Of a stretch of DNA of 64,000 nt, positions 6,293 to 12,800 are shown piece after piece. The notes under the pieces are model-generated. The model ran no database searches, was not told the DNA's origin, and saw only the letters and a list, made by a program, of their open reading frames with translations. The stretch lies in the NCBI GenBank assembly GCA_016873805.1, contig VGVZ01000003.1:62001-126000 (forward strand). The letters run 5' to 3'. Position 1 is the first letter of the stretch. Every line of letters begins with the position of its first letter. The DNA is from Ignavibacteria bacterium. GTDB taxonomy: Bacteria; Bacteroidota; Ignavibacteria; UBA10030. Position numbers and translations under genes: made by a program.

Positions 6293-6365
<73 letters not shown>

Positions 6366-6416
6366 CTGAGCCGTCCAAATCACCATCCACGTTTCGACAG
6401 CAAGAATTGAAACGAC

Positions 6417-6599
6417 ATGAAAGAAAAGATTATCAATTACTTTCAGGACATCGCGAAGGAAATGCAGAAGGTCACGTGGCCGACGCGAGAAGAACTCGCG
6501 GAGTCGACGAAGATCGTGATCGTTGTGACACTCATCATCGCGTTGTTCACCTGGGTCGTTGACACTGCATTGAGCGAGGCGCTGAAAGCAATCCTCTAA
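6417..6599 (+). CDS. secE: Preprotein translocase subunit SecE
   Basis: 60 residues, the short single-span form of SecE, which clamps SecY in the inner-membrane SecYEG channel. It has an amphipathic N-terminal helix, the conserved KVTWPTREEL motif at residues 18-27, and one membrane segment (IVIVVTLIIALFTWVV). nusG follows 27 bases later, the normal pairing. Confidence 0.95.
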   Translation: MKEKIINYFQDIAKEMQKVTWPTREELAESTKIVIVVTLIIALFTWVVDTALSEALKAIL

Positions 6600-6626
6600 C
6601 CAATTCCACGAAGAAACGAGTCAAGC

Positions 6627-7160
6627 TTGGAAAAGCGTTGGTACGTCGTCCGGACATATTCCGGGCACGAAGCAAAAGTAAAGTCATCTCTTGAGAGCGA
6701 AGTCGCACGACTCGGTCTCGAAGAGCGGATCTCCGCCGTGTTGATCCCGTCGGAAAAGGTCGTCGAGGTCAAGGGCGGCAAGAAAAAGACGCGGGTGAAA
6801 AACTTCTTTCCGGGATACGTGCTCGTGGAGATGGTGATCGACAAAGAGACGACGCATATCGTGCTCGAGACGCCGTCCGTGCTTGGCTTTGTACCGGACA
6901 AGAACAATCCCGCTCCGTTGCAGCCTGACGAGGTGCGACGTCTGATTGGCACGATGGAAGAACGAGAAGATGTCGAATTGGTTGAAGTCCCGTTTCGCGT
7001 TGGGGATCCGGTAAAAGTGATCGACGGTCCGTTCAACAATTTTACAGGATTCGTTCAGGAGATCAGCCCGGAGAAGATGAAGATCAAGGTCATGGTCAGC
7101 ATCTTCGGTCGGAAGACACCGGTTGAGCTGGACTTCATACAGGTTGAAGTAGAAAAGTAA
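6627..7160 (+). CDS. nusG: Transcription termination/antitermination factor NusG
   Basis: 177 residues from a TTG start. The NGN domain (KRWYVVRTYSGHEAKVKSSL) binds RNA polymerase. The C-terminal KOW domain contains GDPVKVIDGPFNNFTGFVQE near residues 129-148 and contacts Rho or ribosomal protein S10. The length is standard for bacterial NusG. It lies directly before rplK as usual. Confidence 0.97.
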   Translation: MEKRWYVVRTYSGHEAKVKSSLESEVARLGLEERISAVLIPSEKVVEVKGGKKKTRVKNFFPGYVLVEMVIDKETTHIVLETPSVLGFVPDKNNPAPLQPDEVRRLIGTMEEREDVELVEVPFRVGDPVKVIDGPFNNFTGFVQEISPEKMKIKVMVSIFGRKTPVELDFIQVEVEK

Positions 7161-7189
7161 TATTGATGCAACTATAAAGGTATGTCGCA

Positions 7190-7615
7190 ATGGCAAAAAA
7201 AGTCGTCGGCTTTATCAAACTGCAGATTCCCGCCGGTCAGGCCAATCCAGCCCCGCCGGTTGGGCCCGCCCTCGGTCAGAAGGGGGTCAATATTATGGAA
7301 TTCTGCAAGCAGTTCAACGCGAAGACGAAGGATCAGCAAGGATTGATCATCCCGGTCGTGATCACCGTCTACAGTGACAAGTCGTTTACCTTCATCACGA
7401 AGACGCCGCCGGCGGCGACGTTGATTCTGCGGGCCACAAAGCTGGAAAAGGGCTCCGGAGAGCCGAACCGGACGAAGGTCGGCACGATTACCCGCAAGCA
7501 GGTTCGCGAAATTGCCGAATTGAAGATGCCTGATCTCAACGCCGGATCTGTTGAAGCCGCGATGAGTATGGTCGCCGGAACTGCCCGTTCCATGGGCGTG
7601 ACGGTCGAAGAGTAA
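7190..7615 (+). CDS. rplK: 50S ribosomal protein L11
   Basis: 141 residues, the full family length. The N-terminal signature [20 protein letters not shown] and the C-terminal rRNA-binding [11 protein letters not shown] end are intact. L11 binds 23S rRNA at the GTPase-associated centre together with L10 and L7/L12. The spacing to rplA is 30 bases. Confidence 0.97.
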
Positions 7616-7645
7616 TGTCCCAATAACATTCTGAGATTGTTTGTC

Positions 7646-8347
7646 ATGAGGAAGCACAGTAAGCGTTTCAGAGAAGTCTCCAAGAAAGTTGACGCGAAGA
7701 AACTCTTCTCGATCGAGGAGGCCGTTCGGCACGTCAAGGAAGGCGCCACCGCGAAGTTTGGCGAGACCGTTGACATCGCCGTGCGGCTGGGCGTCGATCC
7801 CAAGAAGGCGGATCAGGCGATCCGCGGCACGGTTTCTCTTCCACACGGGCTGGGCAAAACCGTGCGCGTGCTCGCCATCGCGAAACCGCCGAAGGACGAG
7901 GAGGCAAAAGCTGCTGGAGCCGACCATGCCGGTTTCACGGAGTTCATCGAAAAGATCAAAGGCGGATGGACCGATGTCGACGTCATCATCGCAACGCCCG
8001 ATTCAATGGGTGAGCTGGGAAAGCTCGGCAAGATTCTGGGACCGCGAGGGTTGATGCCGAATCCAAAGAGCGGCACGGTGACGATGGAAATCGGAACGGC
8101 GGTAAAGGAAGTGAAGGCGGGAAAGATTGAATTCCGCGTCGACAAGGCGGGCATCGTTCATGCGGCGATCGGCAAGGCGAACTTTGAAGATGCCAAGCTT
8201 GTCGAGAACATCCGATCATTCCTGAGCACCGTGATTCGCTTGAAACCGACGACGGCGAAGGGCCAATACGTGAAGAGCATCGCGATTTCGTCTACGATGG
8301 GCCCTGGTGTCCGCATCGACAAGAATGAAATCGCCGGCGTCGTCTAG
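7646..8347 (+). CDS. rplA: 50S ribosomal protein L1
   Basis: 233 residues from ATG at 7646; a TTG three codons earlier is possible but less likely. The two-domain L1 fold is recognisable from GTVSLPHGLGKTVRV and the GPRGLMPNPKSGTV signature near residue 132. L1 forms the mobile stalk at the ribosomal E site and in many bacteria represses the L11-L1 operon. It is followed by an unusual 300-base gap with a dispersed repeat. Confidence 0.97.
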   Translation: MRKHSKRFREVSKKVDAKKLFSIEEAVRHVKEGATAKFGETVDIAVRLGVDPKKADQAIRGTVSLPHGLGKTVRVLAIAKPPKDEEAKAAGADHAGFTEFIEKIKGGWTDVDVIIATPDSMGELGKLGKILGPRGLMPNPKSGTVTMEIGTAVKEVKAGKIEFRVDKAGIVHAAIGKANFEDAKLVENIRSFLSTVIRLKPTTAKGQYVKSIAISSTMGPGVRIDKNEIAGVV

Positions 8348-8372
8348 CAGGGCGTTGAAGAACGAGGCCCAA

Positions 8373-8499
8373 TGTCATTCTGAATCCCGCTGTTTATTAG
8401 CGGGATGAAGAATCTGGCTCATAAAGCGAGATTCTTCAGTCGCTTCCCTGCCTGCGTGTAGTAGTACACTGCGGCAGGCAGGGCTCCTTCAGAATGACA
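8373..8499. repeat. Palindromic REP/MITE-like element between rplA and rplJ
   Basis: 127 bases bounded by perfect 12-bp inverted ends, TGTCATTCTGAA (8373-8384) and TTCAGAATGACA (8488-8499). Three perfect stem-loops sit inside: CCCGCT/AGCGGG (8386-8404), GAAGAATCT/AGATTCTTC (8407-8437) and CCCTGCCTGC/GCAGGCAGGG (8446-8483). No coding frame. I know similar 'GTCATTCTGA ... GAAGAATCT' palindromes as frequent intergenic repeats in FCB and related genomes; copy number here cannot be seen because this is the only copy in the window. Confidence 0.8.
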
Positions 8500-8589
8500 G
8501 AAAAAAACTTTCTAGACCAATTTGACATTACGCACTCAACACATAACTCACTTCATTACACTTGATGCCTCGACGACCGTCTGAGGGCT

Positions 8590-8632
8590 TCTCATCAGGT
8601 GAGAGGAAGTTCACGCAGCAGGATCGCGTGAA
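8590..8632 (+). promoter_or_regulatory. Structured rplJ leader (possible L10 autoregulation site)
   Basis: Two adjacent hairpins sit directly before rplJ: TCTCA/TGAGA (8590-8604) and TTCACGC/GCGTGAA (8610-8632). In many bacteria the L10-(L7/L12) complex binds a structured leader here to repress rplJL. The assignment is by position and structure only. Confidence 0.4.
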
Positions 8633-8648
8633 AGGGTAGAGGTACACA

Positions 8649-9170
8649 ATGAACCGTACAGAAAAGGAAGCCGTCGTTGCCGAAGTATCGGAGAAGATTT
8701 CTCGGGCAACCGGTTTGTACTTTGCTGACTTCAGAGGATTGACTGTGGCTGAGGAAACGGAACTCCGACGTGAATTCCGGAAATCAGGCATAGACTATCA
8801 GGTCGTGAAGAATACACTCGCAAAGCGTGCGCTCCAGAGCAGCGAACAGTACGACCGGGTCGCGGAGAAACTGGTAGGTCCGACAGGAATCGTCTTTGCA
8901 TACGATGATTCGGTGGCGCCGGCGAAGATCATCAAGAAGTTCTCGGACAAGACCGGGAAGTTCAAGTTGAAAGCTGCCGTTGTCGAGAAGCAGGTGTACG
9001 ACGGATCGCAGCTCGGCCAGCTCGCGTCGGTGCCAAGCAAGCCGGAGCTGATGGCCTCCATTCTCGGCAGTCTTCAGTCCCCGATATCGGGGATCGTCGG
9101 TGCGCTCAACGCCGTCATGCGTGACTTGGTCAGCGTTGTGGATGCCATCGAGAAGAAAAAGGCCGCGTGA
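8649..9170 (+). CDS. rplJ: 50S ribosomal protein L10
   Basis: 173 residues, normal for L10, which anchors L7/L12 dimers to the ribosomal stalk. Conserved parts are the N-terminal globular domain ([20 protein letters not shown], residues 19-38), [11 protein letters not shown], and a C-terminal helix ending in DAIEKKKAA that carries the L12 sites. The start ATG follows AGGGTAGAGG. Confidence 0.96.
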
Positions 9171-9205
9171 GTGAATCTGATTATTTTATTCTAAGGAGAA
9201 ACACA

Positions 9206-9586
9206 ATGTCAGCAGTTCAGGAAATCGTTGAAAAGATTGAAAAGCTTACGTTGCTCGAGGCGGCCGAACTGAAGAAGGCGCTTGAGGAGAAGTTCGGTGT
9301 GACCGCCGCAGCCCCCGTTGTCATGGCGGGTGCCATGCCCGGCGGCGGTGCTGCTGCACCCGCGGCCGAAGAGCAAACTGAATTCAACGTCGAGTTGAAG
9401 AATGCCGGCGCGCAGAAGATCAACGTCATTAAGGTGGTGCGAGCGGCGACAGGTTTGGGTTTGAAAGAGGCAAAAGACCTGGTTGACGGAGCACCAAAGG
9501 TGGTCAAAGAAGGGCTGTCAAAGGCTGAAGCTGAGCAGCTCAAGAAAGAACTCGAAGAAGCAGGAGCACAAGTCGAACTGAAGTAA
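9206..9586 (+). CDS. rplL: 50S ribosomal protein L7/L12
   Basis: 126 residues from ATG at 9206, with AAGGAG at 9193-9198. An N-terminal dimerisation segment ([20 protein letters not shown]) and an Ala/Gly-rich hinge lead to the C-terminal factor-binding domain ([20 protein letters not shown]). The domain recruits EF-Tu, EF-G and other GTPases. An earlier in-frame GTG at 9167 is rejected because it overlaps rplJ and lacks a site. Confidence 0.97.
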
Positions 9587-9612
9587 AGTTGGACGACGGT
9601 TGCTTCTGATCC

Positions 9613-9706
9613 TCCTGTGTGCCGATGGCAGACAGGATTCGAACAGCAAACGCACATGGAGAGCCGACGACTGAACTTCCCTCGGGGAAGGAATCAAGCG
9701 TCGGCT
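9613..9706 (+). promoter_or_regulatory. Double stem-loop between rplL and rpoB (processing or attenuation site)
   Basis: The 261-base gap contains two hairpins. The first pairs TCCTGT..TGCC with GGCA..ACAGGA (9613-9637). The second has an outer stem AGCCGACG/CGTCGGCT (9662-9669 with 9699-9706) and an inner stem CTTCCC/GGGAAG (9676-9690). No T-run follows, so neither is a simple terminator. In Escherichia coli the same gap holds an attenuator and an RNase III site; equivalence here is inference. Confidence 0.5.
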
Positions 9707-9847
9707 TCCACACTATTCAGGAAGTCATCTTCGCCGGGCCGAAATTCAGTCAAAACAAGTGAAAATCGAACATCCGTTCTGCTCGATGAACGTTCGGCCA
9801 TATCACTACCCGGGGAACCCAAATCATCACATAGAGGAGTGGTTGCA

Positions 9848-12800
9848 TTGAAGAACCAATCCGGCGGTACAAACGGTCGGCTTTCGTTCGGCAAGATTCA
9901 ATCGGTGGTTGAAATGCCGGACCTGCTGAATGTCCAAATCGATTCGTTTGAGAAGTTTCTTCAGCCCAACATCCATCCCAAGCGGAGAAAGAAGACCGGC
10001 CTTCAGCAGGTCTTCGAAATGAATTTCCCGATCATGGATGCGCGGGAAAACTTCCTCTTGGAATTCGTGGAGTACTATGTCGAGAAGCAGAAGTACTCCA
10101 TCGTCGAGTGTCAGGAACGCGGTCTGACATTCGCCGTCCCGCTCAAAGCAAAGCTCCGCCTTTCGTCGAAGAAAGAGGGGAGCAAGGAATTTTCCGACAC
10201 GGTCGAACAGGAAGTGTATCTCGGAAATCTTCCTGCGATGACTGAACGCGGAACGTTCATTATCAACGGCGCCGAGCGCGTCGTAGTGAGTCAGCTCCAT
10301 CGCTCTCCCGGCGTATTCTTCAGCGAATCGAAACACCCGAATGGAACAATGATGTACTCTGCACGCATCATTCCGTTCCGCGGCTCGTGGGTTGAGTTTT
10401 CAACCGACATCAACAACGTGATGTATGCATACATCGATCTGAAGAAGAAATTTCCCGTTACGACGCTTCTCCGGGCCCTCGGCTACTCGACCGACGACGA
10501 AATCCTCGGACTGTTTGATCTCGTCGAAGAGGCCGATCTCTCCAAAGTCAATCTCAAAGACTACATCGATCGCACGATTTGCAGCGACGTGTTTGACCGG
10601 AAGACGGGCGAAATTTTCATCACAAAGGATGCAAAGCTCACCGAGGAGCATATCAAGCAGATCAAGAAGTCGGAGATCAAGAAAATCCGTTTTCTGAAGA
10701 CGGAGGCAACGGTCGAGAGTTCGGTTATTGCCAACACCATCCTTCGCGATGCCGCTCGCTCGGAAGAAGATGCACTGGAAACCATCTATCGCCAACTGCG
10801 ATCCGGCGATGCGCCAGATCTCGACACGGCAAAGAATCTGATCGATCGTTTGTTCTTCAATCCGAAGCGCTACGATCTGGGGGATGTGGGCCGACATCGT
10901 TTGAATTCAAAACTCAATCTCTCCATCTCGGCCGACGTCACAACGCTGACCAAAGACGATATTGTCGCGATTGTCCGATATCTGATGGATCTGAAACAGG
11001 GAAAGAAGACGGTCGACGACATCGATCACCTCGGCAATCGCCGCGTACGGACGGTAGGCGAGCAGCTTGCCCAGCAATTCAACATCGGACTTTCGCGCAT
11101 GACCCGGACGATCCGAGAGCGAATGAATCTTCGTGACAGCGAATCGATTACGCCTCAGGATCTCGTGAATGCGCGTACAATCACAAGTGTGATCAATGCG
11201 TTCTTTGGAACCAATCAGCTGTCGCAGTTCATGGATCAGACGAACCCGCTGGCAGAGATGACGCACAAACGGCGAGTGTCGGCTCTCGGCCCCGGCGGAT
11301 TGACACGCGAACGCGCGGGATTCGAAGTCCGCGACGTCCACTACACGCACTATGGACGGCTGTGTCCAATTGAGACTCCCGAAGGACCAAACATCGGTCT
11401 GATTTCCTCACTCTGCATTCACGCGCGGATCAATGATTTCGGATTCATCGAAACGCCGTACCGCACGGTGAAAGGAGGAAAGGTCTCGGAGGAAATCGAA
11501 TTTCTCACAGCCGAGCAGGAAGATCTCGTGGTGATCGCGCAGGCGAATGCGCAAATCGACGATCGCTGGAAGTTTGTCGAAGACAAGATCAAAACCCGAA
11601 GCGAAAGCGAATACCAGCTGTCCGAGCCTGAGAAGGTCAACTACATGGACGTCGCTCCGAATCAGATCGTGAGCGCAGCGGCAGCGATGATTCCGTTTCT
11701 CGAGCATGATGATGCGAACCGCGCGCTGATGGGCTCAAACATGCAGCGCCAGGCGGTTCCGCTCCTTCGGCCGGAATCCCCTATCGTGGGGACAGGTCTC
11801 GAAGAAAAGGTAGCCAGGGATTCCCGAACGCTGATTCTCGCCGAACGCAGCGGCGTCGTCGAGTCGGTTTCCGCCGGCGGCATCATTGTGGAATATGACA
11901 TCGATGAAAACAGTGCCGAAGCGATCGTGAGCTTTGAAGACAAGCGACGGGTCCAATACAATCTCACAAAATTTCTTCGAACCAATCAAGATACGACCAT
12001 CAACCAGAAACCGGTGGTTGTGGCAGGTCAGAGAATCCGGAAAGGAGATGTTCTGGCCGACGGCTGCGCGACGCAGAACGGCGAACTCGCTCTGGGCCGA
12101 AACGTGCTGGTGGCCTTCATGCCCTGGCGCGGGTATAACTTCGAAGATGCAATCGTCGTCAGCGAGCGAATCGCAGCTGAGGATGTGTACACGTCGATCC
12201 ATATCGAAGAGTTCGAGCTCCAGGTTCGCGATACCAAACGCGGCGAAGAAGAACTGACGCGCGAAATCCCGAACGTGAGCGAAGAAGCAACCAAGGATCT
12301 CGATGAAAACGGCATCGTACGGGTCGGCGCCGAGGTGAATGAGGGCGATATCCTCATCGGCAAGATCACACCGAAAGGTGAAACCGATCCAACCCCCGAA
12401 GAAAAACTCCTCAAGGCGATTTTTGGCGAGAAAGCGGGCGATGTCAAGGATGCGTCGCTCAAAGCGCCTCCGGGATTGAAAGGCATCGTGATTGCCACAA
12501 AACTCTTCAGCCGGAAGAAGAAAGACACAGAGAGTAAGCGCGAGGACAAGAAGAAGCTCGAGGCCCTCGATCGCTCCCGTCGAAAAGATATCCAGGACTT
12601 GCAGGCAAAGCTGTCGAAGAAGCTTGATGCGCTCCTGAACGGCGAGAAATCGGCCGGCATTCGCGACAAGGACGGCAACGTGGCGATCCGAAGCGGAACT
12701 TCGCTCAAAGAAGATTCCTTCCAGACCTTCGAGGATATCGACCGCCTCGATTTCGATCAGGACTGGGTCGAAGATCGCCGCAAGAACAACCTAATCTCCA

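Follow-up and report, generated by a model that had tools for sequence, protein, structure and literature searches.

The structured element between rplA and rplJ is very probably a decayed copy of a MITE, placed at the CTAG at the end of rplA by an IS5/IS1182-type transposase acting in trans; its hairpins would be a passenger, and the insertion is in all likelihood neutral, or close to it. This reading rests on multiple copies that share their ends, on target duplications, on relatives in which the site is empty and on an intact leader. The insertion itself is unremarkable. Of more interest is the nesting; the layered build of the family is a variant worth a systematic survey, and it suggests how hairpin repeats may spread for which no dedicated transposase is known.

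The insertion and its site

The window, the whole stretch of 64,000 nucleotides analysed, corresponds to C3:62001-126000 of the source genome (G000; 3.2 Mb in 60 contigs). The open frame of rplA (L1; 7646..8347, + strand) was matched in 57 of the 61 genomes searched with it, at 66-81% identity in relatives, and adjoins that of rplJ (L10; 8649..9170, +) in all 30 loci examined, namely our own and those of 29 relatives.

An earlier note had described, between these genes, perfect 12-bp inverted ends enclosing three perfect hairpins with stems of 6, 9 and 10 bp. The inverted ends (8373-8384 and 8488-8499) are perfect as described, and three hairpins lie within 8373-8499, their stems measuring 7-8, 10 and 10 bp instead. 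The predicted RNA fold of 8368-8510 has an energy of -74.7 kcal/mol, compared to a shuffle mean of -36.1 (z -10.8), and none of 200 shuffles was as stable. The limits of 8373-8499 hold for the inner palindrome, not for the insertion. Comparison of 16 copies in the genome reveals that this palindrome is the core of a larger insertion of 164 bp (8348..8511, +), flanked by CTAG at 8344..8347 and at 8512..8515. The left CTAG contains the rplA stop codon (TAG, 8345-8347, +). The earlier note had missed where the insertion really ends, its terminal repeats, and the duplication of the target at the stop codon.

The left terminal inverted repeat, CAGGGCGTTGAAGAAC (8348..8363), differs from the family at two positions. 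On the right only a remnant (8500..8511) is left, about 12 bp shorter than in copy C31 and others, from which we surmise that the window copy is probably immobile. Inside these ends a left TGTC-tagged REP-like unit (8373..8415, +), with its own hairpin at 8385-8405, is followed by a right, inverted unit (8429..8499, -). The middle hairpin (8406..8438, +) consists of the facing tails of both units, and a dispersed palindrome, CCTGCCTGC...GCAGGCAGG, is inserted in the right one (8447..8482).

The earlier note had proposed looking for an empty site in close relatives, and the site between rplA and rplJ is indeed empty in all 29 examined. The gap between the two genes is 80-229 nt in these relatives (median 101) and 301 nt here, or 133 nt once the element and one CTAG are removed. 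Neither the terminal repeat (at most three mismatches) nor the GAAGAATCT tail (at most one) was found at the 29 sites; isolated fragments are the tag in L138 (two mismatches or fewer) and CCTGCCTGC in L137 (one or fewer).

Downstream of the insertion lies the conserved leader before rplJ, a candidate L10 leader (8528..8648, +) recognized by comparison with relatives and comprising a TTACGCACTC box and a GATGCC...GGGCTTCTCATC hairpin. The box, at 8528-8537 in the spacer, is conserved as TTACG(C/G)ACT in 28 of the 29 relatives, and GCTTCTC in all 29. The leader hairpin is predicted identically with and without the element. A search of Rfam with 6300-10300 (E <= 1) returned tRNA only and no L10 leader; assignment to a known RNA family was therefore rejected, and the conservation of the leader hairpin rests on the relatives rather than on an Rfam family.

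The MITE family and its candidate partner

The count of copies proposed earlier gave 18 matches to the 127-bp core in its own genome at E <= 1.1e-10, self included, several of them partial or variant. Sixteen copies of 61-196 bp, that of the window included, could be delimited by their CAGGKTGTTGAAAAA-like terminal repeats. In 12 of the 16 the flanking 4-mers are identical on both sides and of the form NTAN (CTAG, TTAG, CTAA, CTAT or ATAG); they are unequal in C8_124, C15, C49 and C31. MITEs are expected to have terminal inverted repeats of 15-30 bp, a target duplication, and several copies of 70-300 bp at unrelated sites. All of this was found here: the repeats are common to the family (the right one truncated in the window copy), CTAG stands on both sides of the window copy, and the delimited copies are dispersed, 14 of the 16 sites being intergenic according to a simple codon-usage predictor. 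Among the options offered earlier, a mobile MITE tolerated at this place is the one that the copy number, varied flanks, target duplications and empty sites bear out.

Eight copies of 176-196 bp possess three hairpins, the third being different in C31. Among the shorter copies, one of 140 bp lacks hairpin 3, one of 125 bp has a single unit, four of 94-95 bp have a single hairpin, and one of 61 bp has no palindrome at all. These seven short forms have flanking 4-mers of their own, exact in five, which indicates that it is the terminal repeats that move, with the palindrome as a passenger. Judged by eye, some of the seven could have arisen by deletion between the direct repeats AGAAT/ATTCT. When the element was searched together with its ends (up to eight candidates scored per genome), 36 of 100 genomes, our own included, gave a match at E <= 0.001, those elsewhere being to parts of the element. 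With the CAGGNTGTTGAAAAA ends alone 34 of 100 genomes matched, compared to two in the control. A literature search, thin on subscription journals, found no description of this MITE. The same genome contains a second MITE-like family with GAGGTTGTCCAAAAAGG ends and a related palindrome (L011, L012, L016 and L078); no target duplications are visible beside these ends.

The terminus of the MITE is nearly identical to CAGG(T/A)TGCTGAAAAA, the terminus of a set of insertion-sequence ends. Eight contig ends carry CTAGCAGG(T/A)TGCTGAAAAA, with 127 bases left to the end of the contig, as is expected where a multi-copy insertion sequence breaks the assembly. All eight are at CTAG, where the search pattern specified YTAR and allowed three mismatches in all. 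One type of contig end runs into a frame starting MRGRDQKQ. In the relative G011 a 78% match to the end is continued by a fragment with matches to IS1182 (3.9e-24), IS5 (3.7e-17) and DUF772 (8.2e-19); its IS1182 and IS5_4 scores lie below the curated NCBIfam whole-protein cut-offs, and it scores above the cut-off for PF05598. This fragment is the only candidate transposase sequence found with matching ends. Twelve plasmid relatives were among the matches listed, and all five named ones are called IS5 family. A search of the assembled contigs of our genome with the G011 fragment gave no match, no complete partner insertion sequence was seen among them, and the sole DUF772 match, on C22 and thus on another contig than that of the window, has no such ends nearby. 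Taken together, the insertion-sequence ends point to a putative partner transposase of IS5/IS1182 type, the gene for which would lie between CAGGTTGCTGAAAAA and CAGGATGCTGAAAAA ends.

The family resembles bacterial MITEs mobilised by IS5/IS1182-type insertion sequences in its terminal inverted repeats, lack of coding capacity, high copy number, short target duplications, and ends shared with insertion sequences of the same genome. It differs in the nested REP-like dimer and in the absence of the partner transposase from this assembly.

REP-like units and nested palindromes

Each half of the inner palindrome reads TGTC-ATTCT-GA-(hairpin)-GA-AGAAT-CT, and the halves are mutually inverted. Within the phylum, 49 of 198 genomes, our own included, contain the pattern GTCATTCTGA(N14-40)GAAGAATC, with up to 78 occurrences per genome; the reversed control has no match in the table of these 198 genomes. 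Thirty-five units were taken from 30 loci fetched from this search. T or C precedes GTC in 34 of them and 13 have a CCA-type tail. An inverted partner lies within 150 nt of 18 units (control stretch: 2), leaving 17 without, and a perfect inner stem of at least 5 bp is present in nine (shuffles: 13/1750) and missing from 26. Among the units of L082-L112, 18 of 31 have an inner stem of at least 6 bp, with 13 different arms (shuffles: 7/3100), from which it appears that the hairpin is kept there while its sequence changes. A strict form of the unit also turned up in records from two named lineages, one genome of Melioribacteraceae and one of Candidatus Kerfeldbacteria; viral contigs gave no exact match to one such form. 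At L112:4780-7100, in Melioribacteraceae, repeated copies of the unit were seen by eye with a long transposase-like open frame between them, and L159 (G103) contains near-identical double-tagged units in tight series.

The closest comparison is with the CGTC REPs (Di Nocera et al. 2013, PMC3733652), as far as the available text of that paper describes them. The units share with these the CGTC/TGTC tag (TGTC here), a stem starting AT, a CCA-like tail in some units, an arrangement in dimers, and the want of a known dedicated transposase. Where CGTC REPs have an uninterrupted stem of 8-9 bp and a loop of 4-5, the stem here, ATTCT/AGAAT, is broken by GA/GA, after which comes a second hairpin of variable sequence. 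The loops are of other sizes as well, the tail of the window copy is CT and not CCA, the tags of the dimer point outward, and the units sit inside MITEs. Since tag, AT start and occasional tail agree while stem, loop and tail differ, we would class the unit, on its sequence, as CGTC-like and not as a member of the CGTC REPs. In its available text, the 2013 survey (PMC3733652) found no dedicated transposase and left the mode of movement of these repeats open.

Sixteen of the 66 paired palindrome copies with enough flank have a significant inverted repeat outside; the other 50, among them the truncated window copy, do not. Typed by eye, the outer repeats are of the CAGG type in eight copies of our own genome and two of G013, of the GAGGTTGTCC type in four of our own, and of a type of its own in each of L092 and L165. 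By this typing, terminal repeats of at least four kinds enclose the units. An earlier example of a MITE that carries a REP is QMITE2 of Coxiella, according to the portion of the report available (PMC5896051); that REP is of GTAG type, the direct repeats are of 7-11 nt, and the lineage is another one.

The palindrome that forms hairpin 3 is present in 32 of 100 genomes, our own included, and in several loci (L096, L100, L108-L110) it stands without a nearby tag. Of the 11 copies that have a right unit, nine carry it at GTCGCTTC^GCTCC, its centre being of three kinds, and C31 has another palindrome at nearly this position. The empty form of the site, GTCGCTTCGCTCC, is present exactly in copy C5_168854 and also at L102 in a relative. 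We tentatively suggest, as a possibility that is rather less than even, that REP-like units lacking their own transposase spread inside the MITEs of several insertion sequences, and that further palindromes insert at the hairpin tips as landing sites, which would give rise to nested mosaics. With units between at least four types of transposon ends and target duplications in the family of the window copy, hitch-hiking is a testable answer to how such repeats move. An IS200-like transposase gene on C24 (L176:1090-2230) is surrounded by clustered palindromes of the CCTGCCTGC...GCAGGCAGG and GGCGTCGGTT types.

Other readings and the target at the rplA stop

The inner palindrome might have been inserted alone, for instance by a Y1 (IS200/REP-type) transposase, with flanking repeats arising by chance. 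The majority of palindrome copies, with their lack of significant outer repeats, would fit this, and so would the seven Y1 matches in the genome, the weakest of which, on contig C23 (L016), has a palindrome copy about 460 bp away. However, the other six Y1 loci were inspected and gave only one mismatched tag, and the left end and CTAG duplication of the window copy match those of 15 other elements; we regard insertion of the palindrome alone as very unlikely. Still harder to credit is a native regulator of the ribosomal operon, to which the strong structure and the position between rplA and the rplJ leader might otherwise point. The earlier note held that an element unique and conserved in position across the phylum would indicate such a regulator. 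Neither is so: this genome has further copies at places unrelated to the operon, every relative examined has an empty site, and the native regulator was rejected.

The earlier suggestions that the element uncouples rplKA from rplJL, or ends or protects the upstream message, found no support: there is no terminator-like site, the predicted leader is unchanged and the position is not conserved. No intrinsic terminator (a GC-rich hairpin and U run) occurs in the element on either strand, and this candidate was rejected. There is perhaps a small chance that the MITE has since been put to use, its RNA protecting the 3′ end of rplKA or being cut there (e.g. by RNase III), so that rplKA is partly separated from rplJL. 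The very stable predicted RNA in a transcribed spacer is consistent with this, and effects of MITEs on adjacent mRNAs are described in the available part of PMC3733652. Against it are the recent arrival of the element, which none of the other 29 loci examined carries, the decay already affecting its terminal repeats, and a predicted leader that is left unaffected, with no site resembling a terminator.

We favour insertion of a MITE by a transposase acting in trans. An IS5/IS1182-type enzyme would have recognized the CAGGKTGTTGAAAAA ends and inserted the element into CTAG at the end of rplA; duplication of these 4 bp would have kept the stop codon. The passenger would have consisted of two REP-like units joined as a dimer, one of which had taken up another palindrome close to the tip of its hairpin, and the loss of about 12 bp at the right end would have come later. 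The outcome would be 168 nt of structured untranslated RNA added between rplA and the rplJ leader.

Stop codons are duplicated by four of the 16 MITE copies, and three of the eight insertion-sequence flanks end a well-scoring frame at its stop. CTAG is scarce in this genome, with 72 sites in 264 kb (L224-L233 and the window), 23 of which are at predicted stop codons; for all YTAR sites the number is 46 of 364 (same simple codon-usage predictor). Special targeting of stop codons was rejected because this background suffices: both kinds of end fall on stops through the availability of CTAG and YTAR there. The scarcity of CTAG, the presence of about one third of these sites at predicted stops, and the restoration of the stop by the duplication provide a route by which an essential ribosomal operon could take up such an element unharmed.
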